IMG/VR virus record: IMGVR_UViG_3300021437_000025
Span: 1 to 55,205 of that record
DNA from: a virus
DNA: 55,205 bases
Strand: one strand, 5' to 3'
The number at the start of each line of letters is the position of its first letter. Within the stretch, counting starts at the first letter, position 1. Shown here in pieces: positions 6,065 to 52,586 of this stretch. The notes under the pieces are model-generated. The model made no database searches, was not told the DNA's origin, and worked only from the letters and a program-made list of their open reading frames with translations. A program made the translations under genes and the position numbers.

Positions 6065-6338
6065 CAATGTCTCCATTGCGTGCCCTTGCGCGATCTTCAT
6101 GAGGGTTCATGAGTCTGCGCTCTATTTCGTGCGCGGCGTCATGTAACACTGCTATTGCATGGGAGAGGGAGGCGTATGACCAGCCTTGTTCAGGTTTGAG
6201 TGCGCCAGTTACCAAACGGGTTACACAGTAATTAACAGCGCCATAGTTCCTCTCTATTGGCGCTGATTTCAATGTAGTGATGAGCGCTTCCAAATCATCA
6301 TCAAACTGCTCCCTGTCATGTGTGGTGATGTATGGCAT
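6051..6338 (-). CDS. DUF6899 family small phage protein
   Basis: A 95-residue protein, MPYITTHDREQFDDDLEAL at the start and NYCVTRLVTGAL, SYASLSHAIAVLHDAAHEIERRL and PHEDRARARNGD later, matching the widespread phage protein annotated as DUF6899. It is all-helical in appearance with no catalytic motif visible. It sits between the metallophosphoesterase and DUF6378 genes with almost no spacing. Its function is unknown. Confidence 0.7.
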   Translation of the reverse strand: MPYITTHDREQFDDDLEALITTLKSAPIERNYGAVNYCVTRLVTGALKPEQGWSYASLSHAIAVLHDAAHEIERRLMNPHEDRARARNGDIDEYT

Positions 6339-47459: not shown

Positions 47460-47482
47460 GGGAATTATATACTTGACTCCCT
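47460..47482 (+). repeat. Left terminal inverted repeat of the R-M element
   Basis: Starts GGGAATTATATA and pairs with the reverse complement of 50374-50396, with mismatches at positions 13 and 16 only. It lies 67 bases before the transposase ATG. Confidence 0.85.
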
Positions 47483-47526
47483 CGCTGTTTTAGGTGATAA
47501 TCCGTCCATGAAAAAGGAGCATTCCA

Positions 47527-48231
47527 ATGGACGATAAAGTCACAATCAGTTTCCTGCAAGTGGTGAAGATGTTCCCTGATCAAAAGACCGCCCGCAAGTA
47601 TCTCGAAGGCCGTCTCTGGCCGAAAGGGGCGAGGTGTCCTACCTGCGGCAAGGGCGAACGAATCACTGCCCGCAAAGACGGTTTTTACCGTTGCAACGCC
47701 TGTAAACTGGATTTCACGGTGCGCACGGGCACGATCTTCGAACGGTCCCATGTCGAACTGCATAAATGGCTCTACGCAATGTATCTGCTAGTAACTGCGC
47801 GCAAGGGCATCTCCTCCATGCAACTGTCGAAGGAACTGGATATTACGCAGAAGTCTGCGTGGTTCGTCCTACAACGGCTCCGGGAGGCGTGCGGCAATAA
47901 GCTGGAGGTCCTGCGCGGCATCGTGGAGGTGGACGAGACTTACATCGGCGGCAAAGAACGCGCCAAACATGGCAAGAAGAAGCTGCGGGCGGGACGTGGT
48001 ACGGTGGGTAAAACGGCAGTAATCGGGATGCGTGAGTGCGGTGGCCGCACTGTCGCCAAGCCTATAGAAGTCGCTGACACTGCCAACCTGCACAGCGCCG
48101 TACTCCAGCACAATGAGTTCACGTTCCGCTTGAACGATGGCAAGGTAAAGAGGCATACTTTAGCCCGTCTCGCCAGTTTCGTAGACGCGACCGTTGGGCG
48201 ACGGATCACATACGGGGAACTGACTGCATGA
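47527..48231 (+). pseudogene. IS1595-family (ISXO2-like) transposase with an internal deletion
   Basis: 234 residues; family members have about 300. The N-terminal zinc finger is present (C37-x2-C40, C56-x2-C59), followed by the HTH region HKWLYAMYLLVTARKGISSMQLSKEL and the first catalytic Asp in GIVEVDETYIGG (D136). The text then passes from VADTANLHSAVLQ directly to HNEFTFRLNDG, which in full-length relatives is about 75 residues later. The segment with the second Asp (DEY/H) and HTNGIESxWxxLKRG is gone in frame. It should be inactive and needs another transposase to move. Confidence 0.85.
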
Positions 48232-48386
48232 CGAACGGGCTGAACACGCTGAACCGGATTACAGATGTAGTCCTAGCTTATCATCCGCCCAAGAAAAACC
48301 GAAAAATCAAGCATCAGAAAGCTCGGAAAAACTGGAAAGGGCACCACAAAACACGACGGAAAGCCGCTCATGCACGGGCTACTTGA
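48228..48386 (+). CDS. Small basic ORF of the IS1595-type element
   Basis: 52 residues, starting at an ATG that overlaps the transposase stop. The first 20 residues (MTNGLNTLNRITDVVLAYHP) are followed by a Lys/Arg/His-rich tail (KNRKIKHQKARKNWKGHHKT). Small basic ORFs are often found just after the transposase in elements of this type. It may bind nucleic acid or be a coupling ORF for the methylase gene, whose start lies within its last codons. Confidence 0.5.
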   Translation: MTNGLNTLNRITDVVLAYHPPKKNRKIKHQKARKNWKGHHKTRRKAAHARAT

Positions 48387-49278
48387 CCGCGAGTCACCAA
48401 ATACAGGTCGTTCCGTCTCTCCTATCTATCTCGACGAGTCATTGCCAGCATCATCGAAGGTCGTGCGTCTCAGAACGCGCCGAGTAAAGCGGATCGTCTT
48501 TGGCTGGTATGGCGGGAAATTCAGCCATCTAGACTGGCTGCTGCCCAAACTGCCCGAATGTCACCACTACTGCGAACCTTACTCGGGCTCGGCAGCGGTT
48601 CTCATTAATCGCCAGCCATCGCCAGTGGAGACGTACAACGATATAGACGGCGACGTGGTGAACTTCTTTAAGGTGCTCCGCGACGAGCCGGATGCGCTCT
48701 CTCGCGCCATTGCGCTGACACCATTCTCGCGTGAGGAATTTCATCGTGCGATCACCGACCCTACGGATGGCGCTACGGACCTTGAGATCGCACGGCGTTT
48801 TTACGTCAAGGCACGGCAGGCCCGCACTGGCCTCGCCCAGACTGCCACGCTAGGCCGCTGGGCCAACTGCAAGGACACCAGCCGTGCTGGAATGTCCGGC
48901 GTTGTCTCGCGCTGGCTAGGTGGCGTGGATGCGTTGCCGGAGATCGGTGGGCGACTGCTGCGCGTGCAGATCGAGAACCGTCCGGCAGTGGACGTGATTC
49001 GGCTATATGACAGCCGGGATACGCTGTTCTACTGTGACCCGCCCTATGTGCATACCACGCGGGGCGACTCGAAAGCTTACGGATTCGAGATGGACGAGAC
49101 AGAGCATCGAACCCTCGCTAAGACCGTAAACGCTTGTAAGGGCAAGGTGGCAGTCTCTGGCTATCGTTCCACGCTGTATGACAAGCTGTTCAAGGGATGG
49201 AGACGTTTCGACGCGCCGGAGAAAACGGTCCACAGCGTCAAGCAAACGAGGCAAGAGTGCCTCTGGATGAACTACTGA
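48370..49278 (+). CDS. Dam-class adenine-specific DNA methyltransferase (D12 class)
   Basis: A 302-residue enzyme. The AdoMet motif I is FGWYGGKFSHLDWLLPKLP (about 44-62), followed by HYCEPYSGSAAVLIN and YNDIDGDVVNFFKVLRD, with the catalytic DPPY at 223-226 and VAVSGYRSTLYDKLF near the end. This is the organisation of D12-class N6-adenine methylases. It precedes the endonuclease gene by ten bases and should protect the host or phage DNA at the same site. All core motifs are intact. Confidence 0.9.
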   Translation: MHGLLDRESPNTGRSVSPIYLDESLPASSKVVRLRTRRVKRIVFGWYGGKFSHLDWLLPKLPECHHYCEPYSGSAAVLINRQPSPVETYNDIDGDVVNFFKVLRDEPDALSRAIALTPFSREEFHRAITDPTDGATDLEIARRFYVKARQARTGLAQTATLGRWANCKDTSRAGMSGVVSRWLGGVDALPEIGGRLLRVQIENRPAVDVIRLYDSRDTLFYCDPPYVHTTRGDSKAYGFEMDETEHRTLAKTVNACKGKVAVSGYRSTLYDKLFKGWRRFDAPEKTVHSVKQTRQECLWMNY

Positions 49279-49288
49279 ACTGCCCGGC

Positions 49289-50374
49289 ATGGCGATTGAC
49301 GTTGACTACAAGCGAGGCGCGGCAGACGTTGCCCGCTTATTCAATCTAGCCGAGGACGATTACCGGGCAAAAACGCTACTACCAGTCAGTGCCGAGGCCG
49401 TAGCTGCCGCCGAGACTCTGTTCGCAACCTCCGTGCAGTCCTACCGAGAGACCTTGCTTGGATGCGGTCTTGCACGCCTACAGAATCGGCGCATTAACAT
49501 CCGTTCGCCCTACGCGAACCAAGGTGCTGACTCTTTCAATGGGCGCAGTTTAGATGAGGTCGTAATTAATCGTTTCCTACAAGAGAAGGAAATCCCATCT
49601 GGCAAGGGGCCGTATCTCGCAGTATTCCGTCGCAGCGTGCGGTTCGTACCTGAGACAGCACAGGGCCTGCGGGATAAAGCTGGCTACACAGCGATGCTAT
49701 CTTACCTCAGCGAATTGGAAGCATGTACGGATGATGCTGGCGTGGAGCTTCTCATTCGCTTGCTGCTGTTCAAATTCGTTGAACTGCGCGACAAGGCACA
49801 GGTCGCAGTAGCGAAAATCGGACGCCTGAGCCTCGCGCAATACTCCGTGCTGATCGAGCAGCTTTTACAAACGCAGAGTGGTGGCTTACTGCCGGTCCTG
49901 CTGACAGTGGCTATGTTCCGCACGATCAAGGCGTGCTACAGCCTGCCATGGGAGATCGAATGGCAAGGGATCAACGTGGCTGACAAAGTCAGCGGTGCCG
50001 GGGGTGACATCACCATTCGGCGCGATGGCGCGATCTTTCTAGCCATCGAAGTGACGGAGCGTGTCGTTGACGGACCGCGAGTGGTCTCAACGTTCAACAC
50101 CAAGATCGTAAAGAACGCGATACCGGATTACTTATTTCTTACAACACAACCACCAGCGAGGGACGCGACCGAAGCGGCTGGACATTACTTTGCACAGGGC
50201 CATGAGATGAACTTTCTTGCCATGCGTGATTGGATTTGCAACGTGCTCGGCACCGTCGGCATGGCATGTCGGAAGCAATTCACCGACCAGTTTTTAGCCT
50301 TGCTTCAAGCCGAGGCCCCGGCGACTGTAAAGGTGCGCTGGAACGAGCTTATCAAGGGACTTTTTGGCTTGTAA
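49289..50374 (+). CDS. Type II restriction endonuclease, SacI-like family
   Basis: A 361-residue protein resembling the SacI-family restriction enzymes: RINIRSPYANQGADSFNGRSLDE, FLQEKEIPSGKGPYLAVFRRSVRF, WEIEWQGINVADKVSGAGGDITI, LAIEVTERVVDGPRVVSTFNTKI and YFAQGHEMNFL (each in pieces). The D240 of GGDITI and E254 of LAIEVTE could be part of the metal-binding site. It cuts DNA not modified by the adjacent methylase. The stop lies inside the right inverted repeat. The specific recognition sequence cannot be read from the protein. Confidence 0.75.
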   Translation: MAIDVDYKRGAADVARLFNLAEDDYRAKTLLPVSAEAVAAAETLFATSVQSYRETLLGCGLARLQNRRINIRSPYANQGADSFNGRSLDEVVINRFLQEKEIPSGKGPYLAVFRRSVRFVPETAQGLRDKAGYTAMLSYLSELEACTDDAGVELLIRLLLFKFVELRDKAQVAVAKIGRLSLAQYSVLIEQLLQTQSGGLLPVLLTVAMFRTIKACYSLPWEIEWQGINVADKVSGAGGDITIRRDGAIFLAIEVTERVVDGPRVVSTFNTKIVKNAIPDYLFLTTQPPARDATEAAGHYFAQGHEMNFLAMRDWICNVLGTVGMACRKQFTDQFLALLQAEAPATVKVRWNELIKGLFGL

Positions 50375-50396
50375 GGGAGTTAACTATATAATTCCC
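50374..50396 (-). repeat. Right terminal inverted repeat of the R-M element
   Basis: Read leftward from 50396: GGGAATTATATAG, then TTAACTCCCT, the partner of 47460-47482. It abuts the truncated P63C frame. Confidence 0.85.
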
Positions 50397-50801
50397 CAAA
50401 ATTTCACATCGTTCAGCGATGTGTTTTTGTTGCGGGTGAAGTAAATTCCCTTTATTTCTGGCATCCAGAATTACATCGCATAGGTCGGCAAGGATAGTAG
50501 CCTCATATCCAAATGCAGGCCGCCCACCACCGGGAGGAAAGAACCGAATAGGGCTTCTGATGCGCGCCGATAAGTCTTTTATTTCTAAGCCTTTATAAGC
50601 CAAAGAGTCCAATAAAGTCGCTACTCGCTGCTCGCCGACTTTTGAGCCACCACTAGAGGACATTCCAATGCCTGTTTGTAGGCCGCGCTGCGAAAGAACA
50701 CGGGTGCCATCCTCAAGAACATAGCAAGGGATTTCTATGTCTACAATTCGTAGTGGATGGTCGGCAGACCCATACTCAGCCTTGAGAATTTTATCGGTCA
50801 T
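50397..50801 (-). pseudogene. P63C-domain protein, C-terminally truncated by the R-M element
   Basis: About 135 native residues from the ATG at 50801, which overlaps the transposase stop (ATGA). Landmarks are LRIVDIEIPCYVLEDGTRVLSQRGLQTGIGMSSSGG, FFPPGGGRPAFGYEATILADLCDVILDARNKG and HIAERCEILG, all of P63C-type proteins, which usually continue with RGFARVGIIALVDEATGYQ. Here the frame runs into the end of the R-M element and picks up a foreign tail (NYIVNSLTSQ). The lost second half is not found left of the element. Confidence 0.8.
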
Positions 50802-51610
50802 GCGGAAGCACCTACAGCGCGAGCAATCGTCCTATTAAAAACATCTACCGTCTTGCGATGATTGAACCGATAGCTGAACTCGTTGAGATAGCTAGGCAAG
50901 TGTCTGAGACTGACCTTGTGATATTGCCCAACGATTCCCCGTTTCAGAAGTGCCCAGAACGATTCGATGCCATTTGTATGAATATCACCATCGACATACC
51001 AAAGCTGATGATTGATCGTGCGGTGATCCATAAAACGCTTGATACCTAAATAGCCCTTGTACTCGTCAGTAATAAGGACAGCGTTGTCTACGTCCACATT
51101 TTGACGGACTAATGCTGACAGACTCTTGGCGTTGAGCTTGTCTTTCTGAACTACTTTTGCTTTCACATTGCCGCCCCGCTCAACCATGCCAACGACAGGC
51201 GTTTTCTTAGTGCCTCGCCCGCGTTTATGGGGTTCACCGTCGCCGCCTTTGCGAGGTTTGCCGCCAACATAGGTTTCGTCCATTTCGACTATACCCTGAA
51301 GTAGTTGGCGTTGTTCGCCTTCGGCCATTGCTTTACGTATCTGCATACCCATGCGCCAAGCCGTGTTTTTGTTAACTTCGAGATCGCGTGCAAGCTGGCG
51401 TGCTGACAACCCCTTTTTAGCGTTAAGGACAATGGAAACAGCTAGAAGCCATTTTTGCAGAGGCAGGTGTGTATGATGGAAAATAGTCCGTACAGTAACG
51501 CTAAAAGTGGTCTTACAGGCGTTACAGTGGTGCCGCCGTTCCTTCGGCATGGGGCTGGAGTTGCCGATTGCGCCGCAATATGGACAAAACGGCTTCCCTT
51601 TCCATCGCAC
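50798..51610 (-). CDS. IS1595-family (ISXO2-like) transposase, second copy
   Basis: At least 270 residues from a GTG at 51610; the frame is open upstream to about 51700 and reads QVYKLFPTEADCISHLEAVRW, the usual N terminus, so the real start is probably a non-ATG codon such as ATT at 51672. Present are FCPYCG and HHCNACK (zinc finger), MDETYVGGK (first Asp), LITDEYKGYLG (second Asp) and HTNGIESFWALLKRG (third catalytic part). All catalytic residues are present, so it could be functional and might mobilise the first element. It couples to the P63C gene. Confidence 0.85.
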   Translation of the reverse strand: MRWKGKPFCPYCGAIGNSSPMPKERRHHCNACKTTFSVTVRTIFHHTHLPLQKWLLAVSIVLNAKKGLSARQLARDLEVNKNTAWRMGMQIRKAMAEGEQRQLLQGIVEMDETYVGGKPRKGGDGEPHKRGRGTKKTPVVGMVERGGNVKAKVVQKDKLNAKSLSALVRQNVDVDNAVLITDEYKGYLGIKRFMDHRTINHQLWYVDGDIHTNGIESFWALLKRGIVGQYHKVSLRHLPSYLNEFSYRFNHRKTVDVFNRTIARAVGASA

Positions 51611-52045: not shown

Positions 52046-52233
52046 AGATCACATTATCGCCATTGTGCCTGGTCTCGGCGGTAAAAGCCGCGATAGAGAA
52101 CTCCGGACACGAACTCCTGAATGACGGCCACGGCGACTTCATTCTTGTGCCCAAGGGCCATAAGCCCATCGCCGATTTTCACCAGCGGCCGACACGCTCA
52201 ACTACCATCACTAACACTCCGGAGGCCACATGA
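52042..52233 (+). CDS. Early hypothetical protein
   Basis: 63 residues. The first 45 form a small alpha/beta unit (LVSAVKAAIENSGHELLNDGHGDFILVPKG); the tail is disordered. It is coupled on both sides by four-base overlaps. Not recognised; small proteins in this position often act on host processes. Confidence 0.6.
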   Translation: MKITLSPLCLVSAVKAAIENSGHELLNDGHGDFILVPKGHKPIADFHQRPTRSTTITNTPEAT

Positions 52234-52586
52234 CGCGGACGTGCCTCGGAAGTCGTAAGGAAGGTGGTATGAAAAAAGAATCTCGCGCACAACTTATCAA
52301 GCGCCTGGAAAAAACAGGCCGCTGGATTGTGCGTATATCAACTGGCGTTGGTTACAATGATTTCAAATGGCAACCAATAGATGAGAAGAATTTCGGCGGC
52401 TCCCTCGATGTCCGTGGCTGTGACCTCAAGGGCGTGAAGCTGCCGGCGTCGGTGGGCGGCTCCCTCGATGTCCGTGGCTGTGACCTCAAGGGCGTGAAGC
52501 TGCCGGGGTCGGTGGGCGGCTCCCTCGATGTCCGTGGCTGCGACCTCAAGGGCGTGAAGCTGCCGGATTGTATGATCATCAGATGA
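52230..52586 (+). CDS. Repeat protein with 20-residue tandem repeats
   Basis: 118 residues from the coupled ATG at 52230, or 105 from the ATG at 52269, which has AAGGAAGG upstream. A short helical start (SRAQLIKRLEKTGRWIVRIS) leads into about three repeats of the form GGSLDVRGCDLKGVKLP-x-SV. The repeat style is that of a beta-solenoid (pentapeptide- or LRR-like), as in many phage and bacterial repeat proteins. Target or role is not known; longer family members would have more repeats. Confidence 0.65.
   Translation: MTRTCLGSRKEGGMKKESRAQLIKRLEKTGRWIVRISTGVGYNDFKWQPIDEKNFGGSLDVRGCDLKGVKLPASVGGSLDVRGCDLKGVKLPGSVGGSLDVRGCDLKGVKLPDCMIIR
52395..52566 (+). repeat. 60-bp direct repeats, three copies (last partial)
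   Basis: Copies start at 52395, 52455 and 52515, each 60 bp, so they stay in frame. The full copies differ by very few bases (e.g. GCGTCGG against GGGTCGG, and one TGTGAC against TGCGAC), which points to recent duplication. The third copy breaks off after 52 bases. Confidence 0.95.

Follow-up and report, generated by a model that had tools for sequence, protein, structure and literature searches.

Bacteria gain and lose restriction-modification (R-M) systems quickly, and the routes of their transfer are still an open problem. The locus analyzed here poses it in a particular form, namely, whether a transposon has brought a complete R-M pair into a temperate phage. The window, that is, the whole stretch of DNA that was analyzed, is a virus record of 55,205 bases (IMGVR_UViG_3300021437_000025, positions 1 to 55,205). 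It encodes an integrase, a major head protein, a portal/adaptor, an internal virion protein, RecT and an exonuclease, and thus represents a temperate, podovirus-like phage. Complete R-M systems are reportedly rare in phages, nine having been found in 831 phage genomes, and solitary methylases are common (PMC4176335). The initial annotation had proposed a complete R-M pair as passenger of an IS1595-family element inside a temperate phage, and this proposal is supported by terminal repeats, protein domains and phage genes. Most probably, the locus is a 2,937-bp passenger-carrying IS1595 transposon with a type II R-M operon, residing in the phage as a non-autonomous copy.

Anatomy of the element

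The element (positions 47460-50396) consists of four plus-strand ORFs between terminal inverted repeats (Table 1). The repeats were originally described as 23 bp long with 21 identical positions, and this description holds; they can be extended to 28 nt at 89% identity, and the number of 21/23 matches expected by chance, as estimated from shuffled window sequence, is 0. Both start with GG, as in other members of the IS1595 family. All four genes that had been placed between them (transposase, basic ORF, D12 methylase and SacI-like endonuclease) are found there. The first three ORFs overlap, the gap between the methylase and the endonuclease is 10 bp, and the endonuclease ORF reaches the right repeat with its stop codon. 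The methylase and endonuclease genes (48370-50374) are unrelated to transposition, which makes the element a tIS, an IS1595 element with passenger genes.

Table 1. Features of the element and its right flank (window coordinates).
Feature	Position	Strand	Basis or remark
Left terminal inverted repeat, GGGAATTATATACTTGACTCCCT	47460..47482	+	-35-like TTGACT inside
Putative promoter, TTGACT-17-GATAAT	47473..47501	+	-35 in left repeat
IS1595-family transposase, 234 aa, internally deleted	47527..48231	+	PF12762, PF12760, NF033547; alignment with relatives
Small basic ORF, 52 aa, conserved family accessory ORF	48228..48386	+	ATGA overlap with transposase stop
D12-class N6-adenine DNA methyltransferase, 302 aa	48370..49278	+	PF02086; alignment
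SacI/EcoT38I-type restriction endonuclease, 361 aa	49289..50374	+	SacI-annotated relatives (tblastn), EcoT38I profile, fold
Right terminal inverted repeat, GGGAATTATATAGTTAACTCCCT	50374..50396	-	Pairs with left repeat
Truncated P63C-like phage gene, flanking target	50397..50801 (ORF 50352-50801)	-	phrog_2384
Second IS1595-family transposase, full-length DDE domain	50798-51610	-	Neighbor, outside the element

The promoter-like site is, as a single occurrence in the window, at chance level, and its reading as a promoter is based on the recurrence of the layout across family members. Where the transposase directly follows the repeat, the element mostly has TTGACT and, 17 bases on, a -10-like hexamer, and the opposite repeat end often has ATGACT or TTAACT. 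Transcription probably starts at this promoter and would run from the transposase through the basic ORF and the methylase to the endonuclease, all of them overlapping or nearly abutting.

The transposase contains a Zn-ribbon and an ISXO2/IS1595 DDE domain and scores above the cut-offs of all three profiles (PF12760, 36.6 bits, cut-off 25.4; PF12762, 45.8, cut-off 27; NF033547, 96, cut-off 75). It has 234 amino acids, compared with about 306 in relatives. The alignment pairs its residues 1-195 with residues 1-195, and its residues 196-234 with residues 268-306, of the full-length proteins, so that 72 residues (196-267) have been lost cleanly and in frame. The second and third catalytic residues of the DDE triad are gone with them. 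With two of three catalytic residues missing, this is a defective, non-autonomous IS1595 member rather than an autonomous IS; judging from the alignment, it can almost certainly not transpose by its own means, and its movement would require a related transposase acting in trans. Of the original description as an IS1595-family transposon, the family assignment is supported by the domains; self-movement of this copy is not supported.

In most relatives, the transposase stop shares an ATGA with the start of a small basic ORF that has the pattern LDxIxDxVLxYRPKPK, and the basic ORF of the window fits this pattern (LNRITDVVLAYHPPKK). In two family elements (L034:6951-8222 and L100:10465-11730), a C5 DNA methylase is joined in frame to the beginning of this ORF, and in L100 the fused gene overlaps the transposase by ATGA, so that the cargo appears tied into the transposase transcript.

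The D12 methylase and the SacI-type endonuclease

The methylase is recognized by PF02086 at 70 bits (cut-off 22), and its motifs YSGSAAV and DPPY are intact. The endonuclease matches the Pfam family RE_SacI at 13.8 bits (E 0.055), under the cut-off of 19.3, and therefore its SacI/EcoT38I membership is based on annotated relatives, a profile search and the predicted fold. Relatives found on plasmids by tblastn are mostly annotated as the SacI family and adjoin a D12 methylase, and a profile of the endonuclease finds EcoT38I at E 4e-9. A structure model built from seven sequences (pLDDT 83; the single-sequence model, with pLDDT 33, was useless) matches EcoT38I (7edb_A) along the whole length, with Z 27.8, rmsd 3.7 over 339 residues and TM 0.74. 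The SacI-like label given at the outset agrees with this modeled fold. Sequence identity to EcoT38I is about 16%. EcoT38I cuts GRGCYC and is located in a P2-type prophage. As to specificity, GAGCTC is not avoided in the window (5 sites observed vs 3.9 expected).

Adjacent genes for a D12 methylase and a SacI-type endonuclease also occur in Agrobacterium, Aeromonas, Calothrix, Halorussus, a metagenome-assembled genome (MAG) and the viral contig L260. As neighboring genes whose association is conserved elsewhere, the two are predicted to form a type II R-M system. The lysogen defense and phage self-marking proposed in the initial annotation would follow if, in a lysogen, host and phage DNA were shielded by the methylase and incoming DNA without the methylation were cut by the endonuclease. 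The pair may, in addition, select against cells that lose it.

Of the PD-(D/E)XK catalytic residues of the endonuclease, D240 and E254 are invariant in the alignment of homologs. The lysine position after E254 is occupied by Thr (E-x-T) in the window protein and in L003, L004, L260 and L261, whereas more distant members, as well as EcoT38I, have Lys here (E-x-K), the usual position of the catalytic lysine, which makes the activity of the endonuclease in this close clade uncertain. The substitution would suit a relic whose methylase alone is of use, shielding phage DNA from host restriction, and whose endonuclease is inactive or unexpressed. Such a relic would also be in line with the predominance of solitary methylases among the modification cargo of the transposon family described below and with their prevalence over complete systems in phages generally (PMC4176335). 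However, the endonuclease ORF is full length and free of stops, and the fold, the Asp and the Glu are kept. Moreover, Thr is common to five homologs from different contexts, which points to a feature of the clade rather than to decay in the window copy. We therefore consider a methylase-only relic unlikely and retain the reading of a complete R-M pair.

The pair outside the element

Plasmids, a bacterial MAG and several viral contigs have the D12 + SacI pair without the repeats of the window, and the pair thus appears to be an independent module captured by the transposon. A search for the complete four-gene block between these ends, which the initial annotation had suggested, found no other copy in the genome, viral, plasmid and phage collections. 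The Agrobacterium plasmid CP039918 and the MAG contig JAPPLI010000060 have both genes in identical order (identity to the window about 71-74% for the methylase and about 52% for the endonuclease) but lack terminal repeats of the window type, and the plasmid copy adjoins other transposition genes. On an Agrobacterium plasmid (L004, 822-7089), the neighbors of the pair are a recombinase and three transposition genes of a different type, which is one more mobile setting for it.

In the viral contig L260, the pair (72% and 54% identity) follows, in the same order, a different IS1595 transposase, which looks intact and is 33% identical to that of the window. The three genes are enclosed by an inverted repeat with 14 of 16 matching positions (GGGATTATAACCCAAA at 2768, partner ending at 6189). 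This repeat was first spotted by eye, and 1 of 150 shuffles gave an equally good one; no target duplication was found at it. The contig apparently represents an independent capture of the D12 + SacI pair by another IS1595 transposase.

A family of related elements in viral contigs

The repeat pattern matched at least 120 stretches in a scan of IMG/VR, and a search with the transposase yielded 149 related stretches; 80 of them were retained. Pairing of the repeats defined at least 134 distinct related elements in metagenomic IMG/VR contigs. Perfect 8-bp target duplications flank 93 of the 132 elements where they could be judged, compared with 59 of 26,210 shuffled pairings; the duplicated sequences are 81% AT, vs 42% in the flanks. 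Near-identical elements (L055/L120, 99.7%; L141/L143, 96%; L085/L097, 91%) were observed at sites whose flanks are unrelated and whose duplications differ. The family has thus been mobile in nature, and the lineage seems to be widespread in uncultivated phages.

These data bear on the simplest alternative, a chance match of the repeats around an R-M pair that is an ordinary part of the phage backbone. The absent target duplication at the window copy is the one observation in its favor; on the other hand, no such match is expected in the window, and the same repeats flank other cargo in more than 100 loci with exact target duplications. The pair as a phage backbone component in relatives devoid of the repeats, which had been named beforehand as evidence that would refute the transposon reading, was not seen. 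Given the family-wide duplications, we rejected chance repeats, whose probability is negligible.

Many family elements do not encode their own transposase: in 39 of the 71 clusters from the repeat scan, there is no transposase ORF of at least 200 aa, and many elements of 200-900 bp are filled by one ORF. Non-autonomous one-gene elements of 0.5-1.1 kb (L014, L032, L046, L051, L052, L066, L078, L085, L097 and others) include several DNA methylases and one Mom.

The exact repeat pattern is absent from 398 bacterial genomes, and the best transposase relative among 200 bacterial genomes is 52% identical. Plasmid matches to the transposase are all below 60% identity, and the isolate-phage collection gave remote ones only. 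The absence of exact repeats (398 genomes) and of close transposases (200 genomes) in bacteria suggests that the family is specialized to phages.

Cargo of the family

Matches to DNA methyltransferases were found for 23 of 102 cargo proteins (two of the 102 are from the window): 11 C5, 8 N6/N4, 3 D12 and 1 Dam. Among randomly chosen flanking proteins of the same contigs, there are 5 in 100 (among the 25 families listed), corresponding to an enrichment in the cargo (Fisher p = 0.0004). Mom, Vsr, the Eco29kI endonuclease and the anti-restriction protein Lar were each matched by a single further cargo protein. Homologs of the cargo seeds account for 16 of 42 non-transposase ORFs inside the elements and 13 of 436 outside, a count that is partly circular because the seeds were taken from inside elements. 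Many cargo proteins are small and unknown; modification is hence a frequent cargo, not the sole one. Three elements (L008, L171, L185) carry phosphoadenosine phosphosulfate reductase-like cargo, two of the proteins matching a PHROGs family and that of L185 being recognized by eye. Long ORFs lying opposite real genes, such as one of 417 aa in L074, were discounted as antisense decoys.

Most of the modification cargo consists of solitary methylases, yet at least four other family elements likely carry an R-M pair. In L022, a C5 methylase is accompanied by the Eco29kI endonuclease. L034 encodes a C5 methylase, a 288-aa protein and Vsr, and L100 a C5 methylase with a 289-aa protein, 64% identical to its L034 counterpart, whose homologs adjoin C5 methylases on plasmids. 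In L121, an N6/N4 methylase and a 202-aa protein are convergent, and the same arrangement is found on a Klebsiella Col plasmid. Given these pairings with methylases, the 288-, 289- and 202-aa proteins are putative endonucleases. The flanks of L022, L034 and L100 contain phage-type genes.

Insertion site

The P63C-like gene is truncated exactly at the right terminal repeat, and the remainder of it is absent from the window. When ten P63C relatives (open frames of 167-406 aa) were aligned to the window, nine alignments ended at base 50397, beside the right repeat, and that of L221 ended earlier. The element thus appears to have been inserted in the P63C gene, part of which was subsequently lost.

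No 8-bp target duplication is present at the window element. Given the truncation, the duplication may have been lost after insertion; deletion of adjacent DNA and recombination between elements are known causes of missing target duplications (PMC11708052), and one of them is likely behind both the missing duplication and the lost part of P63C. An empty insertion site was not found in a close phage relative, as scans with RecT and P63C gave only distant ones.

The missing duplication could also be explained if the R-M pair had been there before, and a rearrangement had brought two IS1595 elements or ends to flank it; the repeat-free occurrence of the same pair in other records is compatible with this. 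In that case, however, one would not expect the endonuclease stop codon to touch the right repeat, nor the four genes to overlap or nearly do so, as in other cargo-bearing members. The broken P63C gene meets the right repeat and not the R-M pair, and R-M cargo recurs in sister elements. Such a rearrangement is therefore quite improbable, and transposition of a passenger-carrying element into P63C is the preferred reading.

The second IS1595 transposase is in ATGA overlap with the truncated P63C gene, and a similar transposase directly precedes a P63C gene in L231, L236, L244 and L246. This recurrence indicates that P63C is perhaps cargo of a second IS1595 lineage, so that the R-M element may be nested inside an element of that lineage.

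Comparison with known mobile elements

IS1595 elements with passenger genes, to which the initial annotation had referred, are known, e.g. tISCpe8 and MTnSag1 (PMC5704250). Like the window element, they have an IS1595 DDE transposase, terminal repeats (about 25 bp long) and a passenger gene unrelated to transposition, and target duplications are shared with its family. Their passenger is a lincomycin-resistance gene, and they are mobilized by conjugation, whereas the window element has an R-M pair as passenger, a phage as carrier and a deleted transposase. R-M systems that move with mobile-element machinery have also been described: PaeR7I was transferred on a plasmid that was linked to IS1/IS5 copies of the host (PMC3031569), and PluTI is cited as a mobile R-M element in PMC6361761. 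Unlike the window pair, neither of them travels as one IS1595 unit within a phage genome. What seems to be new is the phage-borne IS1595 family with modification-rich cargo; an incomplete literature search found no published account of such a family or of its cargo bias.

The chances seem about even that a phage-specialized IS1595 lineage shuttles modification, restriction and anti-restriction cassettes between unrelated phages, with transposase-less elements being moved in trans. If so, phages would have a transposon-based means of trading modification genes and whole R-M systems, and the R-M pairs and many solitary methylases in small transposons with the same ends would be a concrete, testable vehicle for R-M travel. 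The data suggest that some phage methylases have moved by transposition, not by homologous exchange.

Other features of the phage genome

Close to the RecT gene, a 118-aa ORF (52230-52586) with three tandem copies of DVRGCDLKGVKLP encodes a repeat protein. Some palindromes are strongly depleted across the whole window: CTCGAG and GACGTC are both absent, with 11.8 and 10.3 occurrences expected, respectively, which may reflect host restriction.
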